From: Candidatus Nomurabacteria bacterium RIFCSPHIGHO2_02_40_30
Lineage (GTDB): Bacteria > Patescibacteriota > Minisyncoccia > Phycocordibacterales > UBA9973
Assembly: GCA_001785445.1 (NCBI GenBank)
Contig: MFTV01000015.1
Span: 1-32,867 of the forward strand
Direction of reading: 5' to 3'
Length of the DNA stretch: 32,867 nt
The first letter of the stretch is position 1, and each line of letters opens with the position of its first letter. This document shows positions 3,465 through 31,981 of this stretch, in pieces. The position numbers and the translations under genes are program-made. The notes beneath the pieces were generated by a model. It was given only the letters and a program-made list of their open reading frames with translations, was not told the DNA's origin and ran no database searches.

Positions 3465-3498
3465 ATCCCGTTGGGCAGATGTAAAAATATAGATTTTG

Positions 3499-3507
3499 TG
3501 TTAAAAT
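3499..3507 (+). promoter_or_regulatory. Extended -10 promoter of ileS, leaderless start
   Basis: TGTTAAAAT ends eight bases before ATG 3516. This spacing decides the start: an upstream TTG at 3471 would place the promoter inside the coding region. Confidence 0.6.
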
Positions 3508-3515
3508 CAGCCACA

Positions 3516-6500
3516 ATGGCTGAAAAAGGAGAAACAAATAATAGCAAGTCTGAAGCAGCGTTGCGAGAAGAAAAGGTTCTGGAATTTTGGCGCGAGAATA
3601 AAATTTTTGAGAAATCTTTAAGCAAAGATTCGTCGAAGGGAGAATTTATTTTCTACGAAGGCCCGCCTACGGCCAATGGCTCTCCGGGGATTCACCATTT
3701 AGAGGCGCGGGCATTTAAAGACGCTATACCCAGATATAAGACTATGCGCGGTTATCATGTGCGCCGAAAAGGCGGCTGGGATACGCATGGGTTGGCAGTG
3801 GAGATTCAGACCGAAAAGAAATTGGGACTCAATTCCAAAAAAGCGATTGAAGAATACGGCATCGCCAAGTTTAATCAAGAATGCAAAGAGTCCGTCTGGG
3901 AATATTTGGAAGTGTGGAATAAATTTACCAAACGCATCGGCTTCTGGGTGGACCAAGAGCGTCCGTATGTTACATATCATAACGACTACATCGAATCTGT
4001 CTGGAATATCGTAAAAAAAATAAATGAGAAAAAGTTGCTTTATAAAGATTATAAAGTAGTGCCATGGTGCCCGCGCTGTGGCACGGCTCTTTCCTCCCAC
4101 GAGCTTGCGCAGGGGTACGAGTATGTGAAAGATTTATCAGTGTACGTGAAATTCCCCATTAGAACTAACGATTCACTTAGTGAATCTACTTCTAACGGGG
4201 CAAGTAAAATTAAAACTTATATTCTGGCTTGGACGACGACGCCGTGGACTTTGCCCGGCAATGTCGCTCTGGCGGTGGGCGAAAATATAGATTATGTGAA
4301 AGTAAAAGTCGGAGATGAAATATATATCTTGGCAAAAGAAAGAATTTCAATATTTCCCGAAACTTATGAAATTCTGGAGGAAGTAAAAGGTAAAGATTTA
4401 CTTGGATTAGAATACGAGCCACTGTATCCCTACTTTGCAGACACTATATCAGGAAATGAAAAAACAAAGTTAGAAAAAGCGTACAAAGTTTACGGAGCAA
4501 ATTTTGTGACTACCATTGACGGCACGGGGGTGGTACATACAGCTGTGATGTATGGGCAGGACGACTTTGTATTGGGGACGGAGATTGGACTCCCGAAGCA
4601 CCACCTCGTGGGGCTTGACGGGAAATTCTTGAGCGGCACAGGAATATTTGAAGGCAGATTTGTTAAGGATGAAGAAGTAGCCATAGATATTATAAAAGAT
4701 TTAGCTGGCAGAGAGCTCTTACTAAAAAAAGAGAAATATGAGCACAGCTATCCGCATTGCTGGCGCTGTCATACTCCGCTTATTTATTATGCCCGCGATT
4801 CTTGGTATATCAAAATGTCTGACCCGAAAATAAAAGGGGAGATGATTGCTCAAAACAAAAAAATAAATTGGGAGCCTTCCCACATCCGTGAAGGGCGTTT
4901 TGGCGAGTGGCTCAAAGATATCAAAGACTGGGCGATCTCTCGCGAGCGATATTGGGGGACGCCGCTACCGGTATGGGTATGCGATTCTTGTAAAAAAGTG
5001 GAAGTCATTGGCAGTATTGCAGATTTAAAAACAAAAATAAAAAAGTCCGGCAATAAATATTCTCTAATGCGCCATGGGCAGTCGGAAGGCAATGTGAAGT
5101 ATGGCATGCATGGCGTTGTGTCTTCTCGCGAAGAGAATGTGGACCACTTGACTAAAACAGGAGAAGAACAAGTAAAGGCAATAGCTAAAAAATTAAAAGA
5201 CCTGTCGATGCAGGCAGGTAAAAAGTTTGACCTGATTTTTGTCTCACCTTTTATGCGCACTCGGGAGACGGTGGCTATTTTGAAAGATAATTTATACATC
5301 AAAGATGAGCAAATAACTTTCGACAAAAGGTTGGGAGAAGTATATGCGGGGGACTTCGACGGCAAACCTTGGGACGAATACAGCAAGCTGTTTAAAGATG
5401 AGAAGCAAAGATTCCTGGAGCCGATTCATCATGGAGAGTCGGTATTGGACGTAAAAAAAAGAATGGGTGAATTTATTTACGAGCTTGAAAAAAAATATCA
5501 AGGCAAAAATATTCTTATCATATCCCACGGGACGCCACTCTGGATGCTTTTTGCCATAGCCCAAGGTTATAACGTGGACGAATCTATCGAGATGGTCGGT
5601 GGAGTTTTCAGACACGCCGAAGCCATAGAAAAAGGGATAGCCGGAAGTTTCAATCATTTTGCCAATGCGGAACTGCGAACTTTGGATTTCAGTCCGACTC
5701 CACACAATGCTGATTATGAGCTTGACTTACACAAGCCCTACGTTGACGAAGTTACGCTCAACTGTGAATGCGGTGGAAACTTGGCTCGAACTCGCGAGGT
5801 AATGGATGTCTGGTTCGACTCTGGGGCTATGCCTTTCGCGCAAGATCATTACCCATTTGAAAATAGAGAATGGGTGGAGGGCGCCGGTTATCCAGCAGAC
5901 TATATTTGTGAAGCTATAGACCAGACACGGGGCTGGTTCTATACACTGCACGCCGTGGGAGTGCTGATGGGACGGGGCAAAGCATATAAAAATGTAATAT
6001 GTCTCGGGCACTTGCTTGATGCCACTGGCAAAAAGATGTCCAAGTCTCTGGGGAATGTGGTGGACCCATTTTTTGCTATGGATAAATACGGAGTAGACAC
6101 ACTCCGTCTCTGGATGTATTCCGTCAACCAGCCCGGAGAGTCTAAAAATTTCGACGAGAAGACAGTTACCTTGCTTCACAATCAAGTTTTTGGCTTGCTT
6201 TATAATGTACTGGCATTTTACGAACTATATCGTGATAAAAATTTAGAAAGCTGTGAAAAGGCCTTGCCTTTAGAGAACCCAAGGCAAGGCCTTGAAGAGG
6301 CAAATATCTTGGATGTCTGGATTTTAGCTAGACTGGAAGAGTTGGTAAAACTCTCAACAGAGAACCTTGATAGTTATAGGTTGCTTGAGCCAGTGCGTGC
6401 TATGCGGGACTTCATTGGTGACCTCTCTACTTGGTATCTGCGTCGTTCTCGCGAACGAATTAAAAATGGCGACGAAGAAGCGAAGCAAACTTTGTATTTT

Positions 6501-7163
6501 GTCTTGAAAACTCTGGCGAAGTTGCTGGCTCCGTTTGCTCCGTTTGCAGCCGAAGATATTTGGCTGAAGTTAAGTAATGAAGATGATGAAAAAAGTGTGC
6601 ATCTGGTAGAATGGCCGAAAGTCCGGAAAAGATTAAACCTTTTTGGATTCTTAAGGTTTAATCTTGAAGGCAATTACGGCACCCTTCCGAATATGAGAAT
6701 AGTTCGGGAAGTAGTTTCTCTGGGATTGAAAGAAAGACAAGTTCACAATATTCCTGTTCGCCAACCGCTCGCTGTACTTAAGTTGAAAGAAAAAAGAAAA
6801 TTATCAAGTGAGTATACTGAATTGATAAAAGATGAATTGAATGTGAAAGAAGTATGTTTTGATAACTCTGTCCAGAATGAGGTAGAGCTTGACGTTAATA
6901 TTACCGAAGAATTGAAACAAGAGGGGAATTATCGCGAGCTCCTGCGTGCTCTGCAGGATATGAGGAAAAAAATGGGGTTGACACCGAACGACGTTATTTC
7001 AATTAATTTTGAGACAGACCACATAGGTAAAAAATTAATCCAAAAGTTTGAAACTGACATGAAAAAAACTGTGCTTGTGTCTGAAATTCACTTCAAAAAA
7101 AATGACGGCGAAGAAGTAAAAATTGACGATTTGGTTTTTAAGGTGAAAATTGTTAAAATATAA
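3516..7163 (+). CDS. ileS: Isoleucyl-tRNA synthetase with an embedded histidine-phosphatase domain
   Basis: This 1215-residue enzyme charges tRNA-Ile. The class I signature is GIHH (58-61), the variant of HIGH found in the Bacteroidetes-like IleRS branch; the KMSKS loop is intact at 840-844. A CPRCG zinc knuckle and AWTTTPWTLPGN mark the entrance to the editing domain; the C-terminal part is the anticodon-binding region. Between the second CxxC segment and the DLHKPYVDEVTL segment (about residues 505-735), which are normally close together, lies a phosphoglycerate-mutase/histidine-phosphatase domain. It has RHG (519-521), R581, the GES glutamate E641 and SHG (H671), the residues the family needs for catalysis. 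Three palindromes are translated inside the gene. The frame is continuous, so this is an insertion rather than two genes. Confidence 0.95.
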   Translation: MAEKGETNNSKSEAALREEKVLEFWRENKIFEKSLSKDSSKGEFIFYEGPPTANGSPGIHHLEARAFKDAIPRYKTMRGYHVRRKGGWDTHGLAVEIQTEKKLGLNSKKAIEEYGIAKFNQECKESVWEYLEVWNKFTKRIGFWVDQERPYVTYHNDYIESVWNIVKKINEKKLLYKDYKVVPWCPRCGTALSSHELAQGYEYVKDLSVYVKFPIRTNDSLSESTSNGASKIKTYILAWTTTPWTLPGNVALAVGENIDYVKVKVGDEIYILAKERISIFPETYEILEEVKGKDLLGLEYEPLYPYFADTISGNEKTKLEKAYKVYGANFVTTIDGTGVVHTAVMYGQDDFVLGTEIGLPKHHLVGLDGKFLSGTGIFEGRFVKDEEVAIDIIKDLAGRELLLKKEKYEHSYPHCWRCHTPLIYYARDSWYIKMSDPKIKGEMIAQNKKINWEPSHIREGRFGEWLKDIKDWAISRERYWGTPLPVWVCDSCKKVEVIGSIADLKTKIKKSGNKYSLMRHGQSEGNVKYGMHGVVSSREENVDHLTKTGEEQVKAIAKKLKDLSMQAGKKFDLIFVSPFMRTRETVAILKDNLYIKDEQITFDKRLGEVYAGDFDGKPWDEYSKLFKDEKQRFLEPIHHGESVLDVKKRMGEFIYELEKKYQGKNILIISHGTPLWMLFAIAQGYNVDESIEMVGGVFRHAEAIEKGIAGSFNHFANAELRTLDFSPTPHNADYELDLHKPYVDEVTLNCECGGNLARTREVMDVWFDSGAMPFAQDHYPFENREWVEGAGYPADYICEAIDQTRGWFYTLHAVGVLMGRGKAYKNVICLGHLLDATGKKMSKSLGNVVDPFFAMDKYGVDTLRLWMYSVNQPGESKNFDEKTVTLLHNQVFGLLYNVLAFYELYRDKNLESCEKALPLENPRQGLEEANILDVWILARLEELVKLSTENLDSYRLLEPVRAMRDFIGDLSTWYLRRSRERIKNGDEEAKQTLYFVLKTLAKLLAPFAPFAAEDIWLKLSNEDDEKSVHLVEWPKVRKRLNLFGFLRFNLEGNYGTLPNMRIVREVVSLGLKERQVHNIPVRQPLAVLKLKEKRKLSSEYTELIKDELNVKEVCFDNSVQNEVELDVNITEELKQEGNYRELLRALQDMRKKMGLTPNDVISINFETDHIGKKLIQKFETDMKKTVLVSEIHFKKNDGEEVKIDDLVFKVKIVKI
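4154..4200. repeat. Palindromic insertion inside ileS, family R2
   Basis: The outer arms CCCCATTAGAA and TTCTAACGGGG pair with one mismatch; the inner arms GATTCACT and AGTGAATC are perfect. It is translated as about residues 213-229, in the linker before the editing domain. The outer arms match the inverted repeat at 14500-14579. Confidence 0.65.
5058..5590 (+). other. Histidine-phosphatase domain coding segment within ileS
   Basis: The segment codes for YSLMRHGQSEGN through SHGTPLWMLFAIAQGY. Spacing and order (RHG, SPFMRTRET, GES, SHG) match the branch-2 phosphohistidine superfamily. All four core catalytic residues are present, so activity is plausible. Substrate unknown. Confidence 0.85.
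6258..6293. repeat. Palindromic insertion inside ileS, family R3
   Basis: Perfect 13-bp arms AAGGCCTTGCCTT (6258-6270) and AAGGCAAGGCCTT (6281-6293) with a 10-base spacer. It is translated in the anticodon-binding region as part of KALPLENPRQGLEE. The same design recurs outside genes at 27452-27487. Confidence 0.75.
6631..6663. repeat. Third palindrome inside ileS
   Basis: Perfect 11-bp arms GATTAAACCTT (6631-6641) and AAGGTTTAATC (6653-6663) with an 11-base spacer, read as part of RLNLFGFLRFNLEG, a segment that fits no IleRS motif known to me. Confidence 0.65.
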
Positions 7164-24003: not shown

Positions 24004-27000
24004 ATGAGTAATATATTAAATTTAAAAGGGGTAAAGTTTTTTGCCATCGTTGTGTTGGCAATGGCTGTCCTCGCAACATTCGGAATGGTTGCTGTGCAAA
24101 CAGCAAGCGCTGACTGTTCGATCACTATGACTCTCCGAGTAGGTTCCACAGGCGATGAAGTTAAATGTCTTCAAGCGATTGTTGGAGCTACGGCAGACGG
24201 TAAATTCGGTCCTCTAACTAAAGCTGCAGTTATGGCTTGGCAGTCAGGTCATTCTCTAGTAGCTGATGGAGTAGTAGGTCCTCTGACACGCGCTGCTTTG
24301 GTAAGTGGCGGTTCAATGAGTACCACACTTCCAGCAGGTTGTACATCAACCGCAGGATATAGTCCTACCACAGGAACATCGTGTTCTACTGTTGTAGTTA
24401 CTCCTCCAGCCGCAGGCTGTGAAGGAGGAAATCTATTCAATAGCAATACCGGTGCTTCATGTACTGGCGCTGTAGTAGTTGCTTCTGGTCCTGTATCAGT
24501 AAGCTTAGCTTCTAACAATCCAGCTTCTTCTACTATTGTCGCTACTCAAGCTACTGCTGACCTCGCCCACTTTACTTTCTCTGGCGTTGGCACAGTGACT
24601 GGCGTTGTATTGCAACGTATCGGTGTTTCGGCTGACTCCACTCCTTCCAATGTCTACCTCTTCGATGGGGCAACACGTATGACGGATGCAGCTTCAGTTT
24701 CCAACAACGGTAAAGTTACCTTTAGCGTTCCATCTGGCATCTTCACAGTTAATGGTTCAAAGACTATTGCTATAAAATCTGACATCGCCACGGGTACTTC
24801 TGGTCAGACATTAGGTTTCACTCTTGCCTCATTCACTACAGCGGCTGGTACTTCTAGTGTCAATCTTTCAGGCAACATTCATACTATCGCTTCTGCTACC
24901 CTGGCAGCTGTTTCAGCCGGTACTGTTACTCCTTCCGGAGCAACTATTACCCCTGCGGCAAATGTCACAGTTTGGCAGTCAACTCTTAACGTTTCTCAAC
25001 GAGATGTTTGGATGAAAAGAATTGCATTGCGTAACGTAGGTTCCGCTCCAGCAGCTTCTTTCCAGAATTTCAAACTCTTTGTCAATGGCATCCAAGTTGC
25101 GACAGCTCTAGGGCTTGACGTAAACGGTTATGTGACTTTTGACCTCATGGCAGCTCCAGTATTACTCACATCAGGTTCACGCGTTGTTCGCGTAGACACC
25201 GATGTTATCTCTGGCGCTTCCCGAACGGTTCAATTCTCACTTCGCAACGCAGCTGATGTCGACTTTGTTGACTCCAGTTTCAACGTAAACATTGCGCCTA
25301 CTTCTGCTCCTTGGACGCCTACTACGGCTAGCACGATTAGCGGAAGCTCCGGTGGTACGCTTACAATCGAGAAAGACACAACTTCACCTTCAACCAACGT
25401 AACTTTGGCTGGTAGCGACATTAACATTGCAACCTTTAGAGTAACTGCTTATGGTGAAGCTATCAAAATTGAGACATTATCAGGAGGCTTCACATTTACA
25501 GATGGTGGCACAGCTAACGCTGCCGCTACTCTCCGAAATGGTCGTCTGCTAATAAGTTCAGACAGCGGTACTAATTATGTACAGTATGGTTCCACAGCAA
25601 CCCTGGTTGCCGCAGGAACTTCATTCACACTTAATTACACCGTAGTTCCGGGAACTCCAGTTTTGGTTCAATTGCATGCTGATATCTTCGATAACGACGG
25701 TACAGGGACTCTGGACACTAGCGATACTCTTCTTGGTAGGATTATTGCCGGTTCTTCAAATGCCCAGCGCGTAGACTCTCTTGGTTCATTTAGTACTGCC
25801 GCAGCGAGCGCAAATACACTTACTATTGCCTCAGCTTCTATAACACTTACTAAGAATGGCACTTACGCTAACCAGACCACAAGCCTTCCTGCAACTAACT
25901 TCAGAATCGGTTCATGGAATCTTGCTGGCTCTTCTGTTGAAGACGTACTCTTGACTACTCTCTCATTTGATATTAATGATGGAGTCGCAGGTACTGAATT
26001 CGACGAAGGCGATATTAGGAATATGTATGTGGTTATGAAGAATGCATCTGGCACTATCGTTGCTCAGCCTGCTCCTATTGACACTCTTGGCACTGGCGCA
26101 GACCAAAACTTCTCTATCAACTACACCTTGCTTAAGAATCAAAATGTAACTTTTGACCTTTACGCAAATCTTACAGATGATGGACTTGATATGGTGGCTG
26201 GTGTTTCTGGCGGTTCTGATAATGTCGATGACGATGACGGATTCGCGACTGTCTTCCAAGTTTCAGGTACTTCACTAGTATCTGGTCAGACAGTTACCGG
26301 TGGTAACGGCACAGCAACTGTTGCTGGCCAGACGATTTCTGAAGCTGCAGCTACTATTACTGCAACTAAGAATTCTTCATCTCCGGTAGCAGGTATTGTT
26401 TACGACAATCAGACTATTACTTCTCTAGATGCTAAATTCGCTGCAGTTACAGCCGCTTTTGACATCACAGACATTACCCTCACACTTCCTGCCGCAGGCG
26501 CGACAGTTGTGCAGAATGTAATGCTCTACGAAGGTGGTACGCTTATCGCTACAGCTCCAGGTGGTGCTGAAACAGTAACCTTCTCTGGTCTTACTTGGAA
26601 TGTTCCAGCTACGGGTTCTGGCTACAAAGTTCTTTCTGTTAAACTACAGCTTGGCACTATCGGTGTCGGCGGTGGTACAACTGGCGCTTCTATCCTTACT
26701 ACGCTCACAGCCTTTACCGCAGTTAATAAATCAACTGGTGTATCAGCTGCTGGCACAGTAACTGCCGCTACAAGTAGCGCTTTGAACGCCTTTGCTGCTA
26801 TCCCTGTGATTACTCAAGTAACTCTCGCAAGCAACTCTCTCCTTAACACATCTGCTCGTCCACTTCTAAGATTTAAAGTGGATGCCACTGGTGGAGATAT
26901 TGCTTGGGGGTTCCTTACTTTCAAAGTAACTAAGGATGCCGCAACTACTGTCGGTACAGACGCTACGACTGGTATCACTCTTTGGGATGTAACTGCTGGT

Positions 27001-27366
27001 GGTAATACTTCTGTTGTAGGTGTATTTACTAACGCTGCTACCGTATATGGAGCTGGCGCTGGTCCTGCTGACATTGGATTTGTTCCAACAGCTGAACAGA
27101 CAATATCAGGTTCAAAGACTTATGAATTGCGTGGTAACATTGCCGCCGCGGACGCTTCAGGAGACTTCGTAACTGTAACTCTTGATAACGATAGCGCAGC
27201 AATTGTTGCCTCTGACCAGCTTACTGATATTGATGCTGATACTGATGCCCCAATCATTTGGTCTGATATATCAGCTTCTAGTCATGCGACTACAACTAAT
27301 GACTGGACAAGTGATTTCGGTGTCAAGAATCTTCCAGTTGCAGATAGCTTGAACTGGCCTGCATAA
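24004..27366 (+). CDS. Large secreted S-layer-like protein with a peptidoglycan-binding domain
   Basis: A 1120-residue exported protein. Signal peptide residues 1-36 end at TASA. Residues about 40-100 form a PG_binding_1-type domain (LRVGSTGDEVKCLQAIVG, DGKFGPLTKAAVMAWQ, DGVVGPLTRAAL). A Cys/Pro/Thr-rich spacer (about 105-160) follows, then about 950 residues of Thr/Ser/Ala-rich beta-sandwich repeats such as VSVSLASNNPASSTIVATQATADLAHFTFSG. This architecture fits the proposed surface-layer proteins of Parcubacteria: wall anchoring through the N-terminal module and a lattice built from the repeats. Base composition is richer in G+C than its neighbours. It is followed by a strong terminator, so it is probably transcribed alone. 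Confidence 0.85.
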   Translation: MSNILNLKGVKFFAIVVLAMAVLATFGMVAVQTASADCSITMTLRVGSTGDEVKCLQAIVGATADGKFGPLTKAAVMAWQSGHSLVADGVVGPLTRAALVSGGSMSTTLPAGCTSTAGYSPTTGTSCSTVVVTPPAAGCEGGNLFNSNTGASCTGAVVVASGPVSVSLASNNPASSTIVATQATADLAHFTFSGVGTVTGVVLQRIGVSADSTPSNVYLFDGATRMTDAASVSNNGKVTFSVPSGIFTVNGSKTIAIKSDIATGTSGQTLGFTLASFTTAAGTSSVNLSGNIHTIASATLAAVSAGTVTPSGATITPAANVTVWQSTLNVSQRDVWMKRIALRNVGSAPAASFQNFKLFVNGIQVATALGLDVNGYVTFDLMAAPVLLTSGSRVVRVDTDVISGASRTVQFSLRNAADVDFVDSSFNVNIAPTSAPWTPTTASTISGSSGGTLTIEKDTTSPSTNVTLAGSDINIATFRVTAYGEAIKIETLSGGFTFTDGGTANAAATLRNGRLLISSDSGTNYVQYGSTATLVAAGTSFTLNYTVVPGTPVLVQLHADIFDNDGTGTLDTSDTLLGRIIAGSSNAQRVDSLGSFSTAAASANTLTIASASITLTKNGTYANQTTSLPATNFRIGSWNLAGSSVEDVLLTTLSFDINDGVAGTEFDEGDIRNMYVVMKNASGTIVAQPAPIDTLGTGADQNFSINYTLLKNQNVTFDLYANLTDDGLDMVAGVSGGSDNVDDDDGFATVFQVSGTSLVSGQTVTGGNGTATVAGQTISEAAATITATKNSSSPVAGIVYDNQTITSLDAKFAAVTAAFDITDITLTLPAAGATVVQNVMLYEGGTLIATAPGGAETVTFSGLTWNVPATGSGYKVLSVKLQLGTIGVGGGTTGASILTTLTAFTAVNKSTGVSAAGTVTAATSSALNAFAAIPVITQVTLASNSLLNTSARPLLRFKVDATGGDIAWGFLTFKVTKDAATTVGTDATTGITLWDVTAGGNTSVVGVFTNAATVYGAGAGPADIGFVPTAEQTISGSKTYELRGNIAAADASGDFVTVTLDNDSAAIVASDQLTDIDADTDAPIIWSDISASSHATTTNDWTSDFGVKNLPVADSLNWPA

Positions 27367-29599: not shown

Positions 29600-31981
29600 A
29601 TGAAAAAATTATTTAAAGGTTTAGGTATGGGTCTTGCTAGCTCTGCTCTTATTATGGGGCTCGGAGCAGCGCAAGCGCTCGCAACGACAACTCTCGGCGT
29701 AGGTGTCATCACTGAAACTGGCGGGTTGGTCATCACTGGCGCAGTCGGTTCGGCAATGACTTTTGCTACTACTGCTACTACGGGGGACATTACTATCGGT
29801 GGCACTGGGCAGACTTCTGGTACTACTCTAATTTACGGTGGTACTGATACTGGCACTGGCACAGCCGCAGGTCTTTCTTTGACCCCAGGCACAGCCGGTA
29901 CTCTTGTACTCGGTGCAGCTGCAGGCACGGGAGCAGTTTCTCTTGGTACATCTAGTGCTGACCAGACAGTAAATGTTGCTGGTGGCGCTGCGGTTAAAAC
30001 AATTAACATTGGGACAGGTAACACTTCCGGTGTTATCACTGTCGGCGCTACTGGTCAGACAGGGAACGTAGTTATCTATGGTCCTCTGACAACTGGTTCA
30101 GGCGCAATTTTCAACAACTCAACAACAGCCAACCTCGCTATGGGTGGCGCGCTCACAACTGGTAACTTAGTTCTCGGTGGTACTGGCATGCTCGCTGGTG
30201 TTACAACTATCTACGGAGGTACTGCTACTGGCGTAGGCACAGCCGCAGGCCTATCTTTGACTCCAGGCACAGCCGGTACATTAGTACTGGGAGCTGCTGC
30301 TGGCACAGGTCAAATAAGTCTTGGTACATCTACGGGTGCACAGAGAGTTGATATCGCTGGTGGCGCTGAAGCTAAAACTGTCAACATCGCTAACGCTAAC
30401 ACTACTGGTGTTATTACTGTCGGCGCTACTGGTCAGACAGGGAACGTAGTTATCTATGGTGGCAATACGGGCGGTGCAAACCAAATATTCAACAATACTA
30501 CAACTTCAACTATCGCTCTTGGTGGAGCGCTGACAACAGGCGACCTTACCATTGGTGGTACTGGCCAGCTTGCAAGTAACACAATAATCTATGGTGGTAC
30601 TGATACAGGCGCTGGTATAGCCGCTGGTCTATCTTTGACTCCAGGCACAGCCGGTACATTAGTACTCGGCGCTGCTGCTGGAACAGGAGCTATTTCTCTT
30701 GGTACTTCATCAGCTGATCAAACGGTAAACATTGCTGGTGGCGCTGCAGTTAAGACTGTCAACATCGCTGCTGCTAACACTTCCGGTGTTATCACTATTG
30801 GTGCTACAGGTCAGACAGGGAACGTCATTATTTTTGGTGCTTTAACGACTGGCGCGAACACATTATTTAACAACACTACAACAGCTACCACGACAATTGC
30901 TTCTGCTGTTACGGAAGGAGCTATTCAAATCGGTGGTACTTCTATGACTTCTGCTGTTACTAAGATCTACGGAGGTACAGCTACTGGCGCTGGTGTGGCC
31001 GCTGGTCTTTCCCTAACTCCAGGCACAGCCGGTACATTAGTACTTGGCGCTGCTGCTGGAACAGGAGCAGTTTCTCTTGGTACATCTTCAGCTGATCAAA
31101 CAGTGAATGTTGCTCAAGGTACTGCAGTCAAAACTATTAACATTGGTACTGCTAACACTTCTGGTGTCACTATTATCGGTGGTACAGCTGGAACCGGAGC
31201 TATTACGCTTGGTTCAAGTACAGGTGGGCAGACAGTCAATGTTGGTACTGGAAACTCAGGCGGGGCAGATGTTCTTAATCTTGGTACTGGTACAGCGGTT
31301 ACTTCAAAGACAGTCAACGTTGCTACTGGTGCCATTTCGTTCGTGAATGTTGGTACTGGAGACTTTGTAAACACAATTAAAATCGGTGACCATGCAACTC
31401 CTGCTAACGTAATTACAATTGGTGGCGCTGCTTCAACGACCACTGTAAAAGGTACTCTTACTGTTGGTGTTGATGACACAGGTCACGACGTCACATTCTT
31501 CGGTGCTACAACTGGTAAATCATTCCTTTGGGATGAATCTGCTGACAAGATGATTGTTACTGGTACTTCTACACTTGCTGGCGATGTTGCAGTTACTGGT
31601 AGTGCAACTTTCACTAATGGTACAGCAGTACTAGGAGACACGGGCACAAATACTAGCAACTGTACAGGTGCCAACAACGTAACATTCCCTCTTGCTACTG
31701 GTAACTTCTTCTCAATTGACATGGAAGACGCAAGCGATTGTTCCATTACTTTCTCTGGTGGAGTAGCTGGCGCTATAGTTGTTATTCAATTGGAATACTC
31801 TGGTACAGACAACTTTACCTTTGCTGATACTACACCGCAAGTTGAACTTATTGAACAAGTATGCGCGGACTCAGCAGGAGCTGAACCAGATGCTAATGGA
31901 GATATCGTAACTCTCACTATAAGAATGTTAGATGCGACAAGTCCTCAGGTTCTTGCATGTACACAGACTAGTGTAGCTTAA
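29600..31981 (+). CDS. Secreted repeat protein with four 126-residue repeats
   Basis: A 793-residue exported protein. The signal peptide (residues 1-29) ends at QALA. Residues about 62-520 contain four copies of a 126-residue unit with the phrase GLSLTPGTAGTLVLGAAAGTG; the copies begin at 29870, 30248, 30626 and 31004, spaced exactly 378 bases apart. Each unit has short strands of the type TVNVAGGAAVKTINIGTG and GVITVGATGQTGNVVIYG, suggesting a beta-solenoid or fibre. A shorter-repeat zone follows, then a non-repeated C-terminal domain (about 680-793) with three cysteines. It is probably a surface fibre or coat protein. The unit resembles phage tail-fibre-like repeats, but no homology is claimed. 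Confidence 0.75.
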   Translation: MKKLFKGLGMGLASSALIMGLGAAQALATTTLGVGVITETGGLVITGAVGSAMTFATTATTGDITIGGTGQTSGTTLIYGGTDTGTGTAAGLSLTPGTAGTLVLGAAAGTGAVSLGTSSADQTVNVAGGAAVKTINIGTGNTSGVITVGATGQTGNVVIYGPLTTGSGAIFNNSTTANLAMGGALTTGNLVLGGTGMLAGVTTIYGGTATGVGTAAGLSLTPGTAGTLVLGAAAGTGQISLGTSTGAQRVDIAGGAEAKTVNIANANTTGVITVGATGQTGNVVIYGGNTGGANQIFNNTTTSTIALGGALTTGDLTIGGTGQLASNTIIYGGTDTGAGIAAGLSLTPGTAGTLVLGAAAGTGAISLGTSSADQTVNIAGGAAVKTVNIAAANTSGVITIGATGQTGNVIIFGALTTGANTLFNNTTTATTTIASAVTEGAIQIGGTSMTSAVTKIYGGTATGAGVAAGLSLTPGTAGTLVLGAAAGTGAVSLGTSSADQTVNVAQGTAVKTINIGTANTSGVTIIGGTAGTGAITLGSSTGGQTVNVGTGNSGGADVLNLGTGTAVTSKTVNVATGAISFVNVGTGDFVNTIKIGDHATPANVITIGGAASTTTVKGTLTVGVDDTGHDVTFFGATTGKSFLWDESADKMIVTGTSTLAGDVAVTGSATFTNGTAVLGDTGTNTSNCTGANNVTFPLATGNFFSIDMEDASDCSITFSGGVAGAIVVIQLEYSGTDNFTFADTTPQVELIEQVCADSAGAEPDANGDIVTLTIRMLDATSPQVLACTQTSVA
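29783..31160 (+). repeat. Tandem coding repeats, 378-bp period
   Basis: Units begin at 29783, 30161, 30539 and 30917 (G-D/N/A-I/L start of each unit). No length changes occur between copies; the fourth diverges after about 31150. The period is a multiple of three and translates to 126 residues. Confidence 0.85.

Follow-up and report, generated by a model that had tools for sequence, protein, structure and literature searches.

A complete histidine phosphatase (HP) domain is inserted in the isoleucyl-tRNA synthetase (IleRS) of the Nomurabacteria genome studied here, and what sets this insert apart is that it behaves as a cassette. As judged from sequence comparison, the finding extends beyond the single protein in which a sequence-only reading had noticed the domain: it is class-wide, it also occurs in valyl-tRNA synthetase (ValRS), it stands free beside ileS in some families, and it has been repeatedly lost and swapped.

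An IleRS gene with an inserted domain

The window, meaning the whole 32,867-nucleotide stretch that was analysed, contains at 3471–7163 on the plus strand an uninterrupted single ORF encoding an IleRS of 1230 amino acids, counted from a TTG; ileS could plausibly start instead from an ATG at 3516. Residues are numbered here from the TTG, and our H535 is the H520 of the sequence-only reading, which counts from the ATG. The protein scores 861.7 bits against the IleRS equivalog model TIGR00392 (cut-off 621.4 bits) and carries the class I motifs, the CP1 editing domain and the anticodon domain, represented by a variant GIHH, KMSKS, WTTTPWT/GTGVVH and PF08264. Its predicted function, from these motifs and models, is the charging of tRNA-Ile with isoleucine. 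It aligns throughout with type 2 IleRS, including the GXHH-bearing IleRS2 (TIGR00392; Priestia megaterium IleRS2, PDB 8c8w; PMC10485003), over the core, KMSKS, the CP1 editing domain, the Zn-ribbon and the anticodon domain. At 3687–3698, GIHH stands in place of HxGH. The altered GXHH motif gives IleRS2 mupirocin hyper-resistance (PMC10485003); in our aligned set the GxHH form is found in 59/111 HP-bearing and 4/16 insert-less IleRS. Two other large ORFs of the window lie at 24004–27366 (1120 aa, with a peptidoglycan-binding motif as the only Pfam match) and 29600–31981 (793 aa, no Pfam match). The features of the gene are:

3471..7163, plus strand: ileS, IleRS with HP insert; single ORF; TIGR00392 (861.7 bits), PF00133, PF08264, PF19302
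3687..3698, plus strand: HIGH-type signature motif GIHH, residues 73–76; GXHH is the altered IleRS2 motif (PMC10485003)
4230..4571, plus strand: CP1 editing motifs, both intact in this HP-bearing protein: WTTTPWT starting at residue 254, GTGVVH...DD starting at residue 351
4980..4991, plus strand: C504 and C507, leading cysteine pair of the Zn-ribbon that hosts the insert; 94 of 125–127 aligned IleRS show the CCCC pattern
5028..5699, plus strand: inserted segment, residues ~520–743, without counterpart in insert-less relatives and solved IleRS
5064..5582, plus strand: HP domain, PF00300 match, residues 532–704; AlphaFold2 pLDDT 89, pTM 0.88
5070..5078, plus strand: RHG motif R534-H535-G536, H535 the predicted nucleophile; invariant in 102/102
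5256..5258, plus strand: R596, second phosphate-pocket arginine; invariant in 102/102 and 180/180
5337..5339, plus strand: E623, predicted general acid; E in 101 and D in 1 of 102
5526..5528, plus strand: H686, second active-site histidine; invariant in 102/102 and 180/180
5763..5771, plus strand: C765 and C767, closing cysteine pair of the same Zn-ribbon, from sequence
6033..6047, plus strand: KMSKS motif, residues 855–859, from sequence

The insert lies ahead of KMSKS, in agreement with the sequence-only reading, at a distance of about 110 residues, but not between normally adjacent segments of the catalytic core as that reading had it: the host is a loop of the Cys4 Zn-ribbon, running from C504xxC507 to C765xC767 in the connective region, and not the Rossmann core. 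Alignments to solved IleRS relatives split into two blocks at ~519/744; unlike the window protein, none of the solved IleRS matched has an HP at this point, and insert-free relatives have a short linker in its place. The borders of the insert carry conserved motifs, one KTKKSGNKYF-like and the other PxPHN. An assembly join at these borders, or a chimera, is ruled out by the single frame, by GC and GC3 equal to those of the flanks, and by the recurrence of the architecture in many independent contigs of relatives; in the initial set of loci, which includes duplicates, 111/111 carry IleRS and HP in one frame.

Fold and active site of the insert

That the insert is an HP with all core catalytic residues, as had been proposed, is confirmed by a PF00300 (His_Phos_1) match of 100.2 bits (E 1.6e-28) and by R534-H535-G536, N541, R596, E623 and H686, which include the branch 1 set of RHG, second arginine, acid and second histidine. 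The AlphaFold2 model of the insert with its flanks has a pLDDT of 89.4 and a pTM of 0.88, and that of IleRS residues 28–925 including the HP a mean pLDDT of 84 and a pTM of 0.82. Superposed on PspA over 183 residues, the insert model gives an rmsd of 2.3 and a Z of up to 21.0. The closest solved folds are PspA (4ij5/4ij6, Z ~21), PhoE (1h2e, Z 20) and GpgP Rv2419c (4qih, Z 20), followed by CobC (6e4b) and a riboflavin-pathway HFP (9mmh, Z 19), with Z differences below 1 to be read as ties; the solved structures nearest to the HP are thus small-molecule phosphatases. PspA, PhoE, GpgP and CobC share with the insert the fold (Z 19–21) and the RHG/R/E/H active site, but are only 22–25% identical to it in structural alignment, and the insert sits in a synthetase. 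None of the NCBIfam HP equivalog cut-offs is reached by the insert: it scores 80.6 bits against alpha-ribazole phosphatase CobC (TIGR03162, cut-off 162.9), 32.8 against phosphohistidine phosphatase SixA (TIGR00249, cut-off 74.5) and 25.5 against glycolytic dPGM (TIGR01258, cut-off 81.7), and the genome itself has no PGK or enolase match. Taken together, the profile and the model assign the insert to branch 1 of the histidine phosphatases, predicted to be catalytically competent through a phospho-histidine.

Loss of the catalytic residues in close orthologues, which the sequence-only reading had raised as a challenge to itself, was not seen; the residues are kept in 102/102 aligned close-relative IleRS (E623 in 101/102). 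R534, H535, G536, S592, R596 and H686 are invariant in this set, in which the inserts have a mean identity of 41% and the core 68%, and a wider sample of ~180 inserts retains the catalytic residues almost without exception. The most conserved parts of the insert are the active-site strands, and among the most variable are loops which, from what is known of the family, we take to be those lining the pocket in HP enzymes. Such a pattern would be expected of constant chemistry with a changing substrate or partner.

These data bear on the suggestion, also made in the sequence-only reading, that the domain is a structural passenger; in that case an exposed, permissive loop would simply accommodate a domain for which there is no selection. 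Clean losses of the domain (described below) agree with it, as does pN/pS, which is below 1 throughout and, at 0.10–0.67 in the insert, mostly above the 0.06–0.15 of the core, values that are partly inflated by exchange in the insert and have pS near saturation. The near-invariance of the catalytic residues across ~180 copies of an otherwise fast-changing domain fits poorly with a passenger and counters a degenerate one, and an insert-like free gene has been retained beside ileS. We consider the passenger explanation very improbable.

Distribution in Patescibacteria

The survey covered Patescibacteria genomes, solved IleRS and curated models. In Patescibacteria, bacteria with very small genomes, the HP-in-IleRS architecture was found in more than 170 distinct IleRS, and 80 contig loci share it among Nomurabacteria, Zambryskibacteria, Taylorbacteria, Vogelbacteria and others. 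A draw of 380 genomes of the phylum gave a list ordered by kinship, in which 37 are from the class of the window's genome, and those beyond the list were taken as outside that class. Among the 37, a long IleRS-type frame contains the insert in 28, a free insert-like HP is present in 5, and neither is seen at E <= 1e-34 in 4; outside the class, 22 genomes match, 1 of them with a free gene. An earlier sample of the class gave at least 81/143 genomes in which a frame roughly as long as IleRS contains an HP, about half of which were then fetched and typed as IleRS. The insert is the single PF00300 match of the window's own genome (714 kb, 97% complete).

Repeated loss and cassette exchange

The IleRS of G017 and G033 have short canonical linkers and branch within a group of congeneric IleRS that bear the HP; G056 IleRS likewise has a short canonical linker and no HP. 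On a core tree built with the insert columns removed, the presence of the HP changes at least 11 times, all on well-supported branches, in a sample where insert-less IleRS were deliberately sought and their share is therefore biased. Because it has been lost repeatedly, the domain is dispensable.

The history of the insert also differs from that of its host. Insert identity follows core identity weakly (Spearman 0.36 over 15,225 pairs), whereas the CP1 editing domain tracks the remaining core (0.77), and nearest neighbours by insert and by core agree in 33/175. Some IleRS pairs are 83–88% identical in the core and 32–38% in the insert; others are 43–49% identical in the core with inserts up to 76% identical. 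Sliding identity maps the breaks near residues 520 and 740. Eight IleRS of one genus, termed core type B, form one fully supported clade on the core tree, and their inserts require 7 changes on the HP tree, hardly below shuffled labels; forcing these inserts into one clade costs 514 log-likelihood units (AU p 2.4e-32). Because identity breaks at the borders and the core B inserts are scattered, the sequences indicate that HP domains have changed partners between IleRS genes at the borders KTKKSGNKYF and PLPHNENYELDLHRPYID. The route may be either movement of cassettes into cores or replacement of cores around cassettes. Genus g1 has two strongly divergent IleRS core types, 43–49% identical (L025, L027, L028, L029, L138 and L148 versus the others).

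Related arrangements in ValRS, in tandem and as free genes

Related ARRANGEMENTS comprise ValRS HPs, double-HP IleRS, an HP placed after KMSKS and free HPs beside ileS. HP domains occupy the homologous Zn-ribbon region in the ValRS of G046, G109, G198, G242, G204, G373 and G244 (loci L183 and L190–L195); the G244 protein has two in tandem, and the G242 copy has lost the second histidine. Each IleRS of family f147 (G298, G370, G351, G285) has two HPs, the second lying, where read, in another loop of the same ribbon. The IleRS of G244 (L189) has a GNAT domain in the usual insertion site and, between KMSKS and the anticodon domain, an HP.

The IleRS of G102, G076, G147, G186 and G177 lacks the insert, and the gene immediately upstream of ileS, in the same orientation, encodes a free HP. 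These free HPs score 171–193 bits on the insert HMM, and most other free HPs about 120 bits or less; the gene preceding them is argS in the three that were read (G102, G076, G177). A free insert-like HP lies 1–2 kb upstream of ileS in G121 and G098, and in G126 and G188 the two genes are on different contigs. On the HP tree, from which the G098 gene was left out, the free insert-like genes cluster within the IleRS inserts, G121 excepted. A separate acquisition of synthetase-borne HPs is suggested by the differing hosts and sites and not by the trees, since neither a single origin of all of them (AU p 0.16) nor a single clade of ValRS HPs (AU p 0.21) is rejected.

Possible functions of the inserted phosphatase

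HP enzymes transfer terminal phosphoryl groups. Because of this chemistry, and because the CP1 editing motifs are intact beside the HP, the proofreading role offered in the sequence-only reading is unlikely, and a replacement of CP1 editing by the HP is rejected.

Our tentative reading, to which we give somewhat less than an even chance, is that the HP is an accessory phosphatase acting in cis and serving the synthetase–tRNA complex. The domain would ride on IleRS as an accessory, exchangeable and putatively active cassette, leaving the CP1 editing domain in its role. A terminal phosphate would be hydrolysed through phospho-His535, with R534, R596 and H686 forming the phosphate pocket and E623 acting as the acid, and the substrate would be met at or near the synthetase–tRNA complex. 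One candidate substrate is a phosphorylated tRNA CCA end, a toxSAS-type lesion; another is a phospho-serine on the synthetase, an example that draws on HipA-type kinases. Aminoacylation would thereby be protected or restored, and the variable pocket loops and cassette exchange would mirror changing phosphorylated targets. Pyrophosphorylation of the CCA end by toxSAS toxins is a real attack on aminoacylation (PMC11559606), and that such an attack is documented speaks for the in-cis reading. So do catalytic residues kept near-invariant at 41% insert identity, conserved strands beneath variable loops, and the repeated ties to a synthetase (the IleRS insert, the free HP upstream of ileS, the ValRS HPs, the second HP of f147). 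The sharing of cassettes between two IleRS core types (AU p 2.4e-32) and the apparent lack of lower glycolysis in the genome, which argues against a mutase role, point the same way. Against it are same-genus relatives that live without the insert, nearest solved relatives that act on small metabolites, the G242 ValRS copy without its second histidine, and charge: the inserts are near neutral and by this measure show no sign of an RNA-binding surface. A more specific form, in which the IleRS/ValRS cassette repairs or reverses phosphorylation damage on the tRNA–synthetase complex and lineages exchange specificities as in an evolving protection module, is doubtful, at perhaps one chance among several.

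The HP might instead be a housekeeping phosphatase for some common small phosphometabolite, in the manner of PhoE, PspA, GpgP and CobC, with IleRS as a constitutively expressed carrier. Its closest solved structures are of this kind, the insert is the sole HP of its genome, and free insert-like versions exist, those of f75 away from ileS. A mere carrier would not be expected to show repeated ties to ileS and a ValRS HP at the same ribbon, and the insert reaches no equivalog cut-off. The best-known role, that of glycolytic phosphoglycerate mutase, is unlikely because the genome has no match to PGK (PF00162), enolase (PF00113) or iPGM (PF01676); lower glycolysis seems absent from it. We regard a metabolic role as somewhat unlikely, though well worth keeping in view.

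The location on a synthetase is also what would be expected of an enzyme that clears PPi, AMP or Ap4A formed in aminoacylation and so drives or cleans the reaction, and the genome has no match to the PF00719 pyrophosphatase. The presence of PF00719, the one pyrophosphatase family considered, is not complementary to that of the insert (G017 has neither, G009 both), which speaks against a pyrophosphatase substitute, and insert-less IleRS are viable. A by-product enzyme seems improbable.

A further alternative compares the HP with a resistance module carried by the target itself: the domain would dephosphorylate an inhibitor or toxin product aimed at IleRS or ValRS, and be swapped or lost as threats change. 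Exchange, loss, the variable pocket loops and the GNAT at the same site in G244 agree with this, but this analysis revealed no link between the HP and a toxin or antibiotic gene, and we know of no phosphorylated IleRS inhibitor. It is in our judgement distinctly unlikely.

Relation to known systems

Class I synthetases carry connective-peptide insertions, such as the CP1 editing domain and the leucine-specific domain, which are extra domains in the core, ancestral and family-wide. The NCBIfam model NF040702 (ileS_w_GNAT) likewise describes a catalytic domain built into IleRS, but a GNAT rather than an HP and, to judge by the profile coordinates, at another site; the window protein scores 309.3 bits against it (cut-off 1999) and has no GNAT match. 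Since catalytic class I insertions exist in CP1 editing and NF040702, the kind is already known. Our search, which covered open-access journal papers, found none pairing IleRS, ValRS or aminoacyl-tRNA synthetases with an HP insert. Type I restriction specificity subunits swap target-recognition domains in a conserved scaffold via conserved borders. The HP cassette resembles these in being a variable domain exchanged through conserved borders; unlike them, it is an enzyme within a housekeeping synthetase.

The domains inserted in synthetases are as a rule of ancestral origin, and they co-evolve with the core. The HP is an entire enzyme whose active site is constrained; within a very large uncultured radiation it is gained, lost, doubled, exchanged, and found in a sister synthetase or a neighbouring gene. 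Its kept catalytic residues and its exchange between lineages suggest a selected side job in an essential enzyme. Should the substrate be tied to tRNA or the synthetase, the domain would add a new level at which translation is protected or controlled; should it not be, the insert would clearly exemplify how an essential gene can play host to an enzyme with which it has no functional connection. Natural controls are at hand in the relatives without the insert and in the families with the free gene.

Other histidine phosphatase frames

Several HP frames of other kinds were seen. A conserved family of free HPs of ~180–210 aa, in which RHG reads VHG or AHG, occurs at L143, L146, L150–L152 and L253–L256. 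A 437-aa frame of G360 (L262) has a VTT membrane domain followed by His_Phos_1. In G101, a 486-aa frame (L197:1222-2679) has His_Phos_1 followed by pyruvate kinase and is perhaps a glycolytic mutase–kinase fusion; HP frames of similar length are present in G014 and G017.
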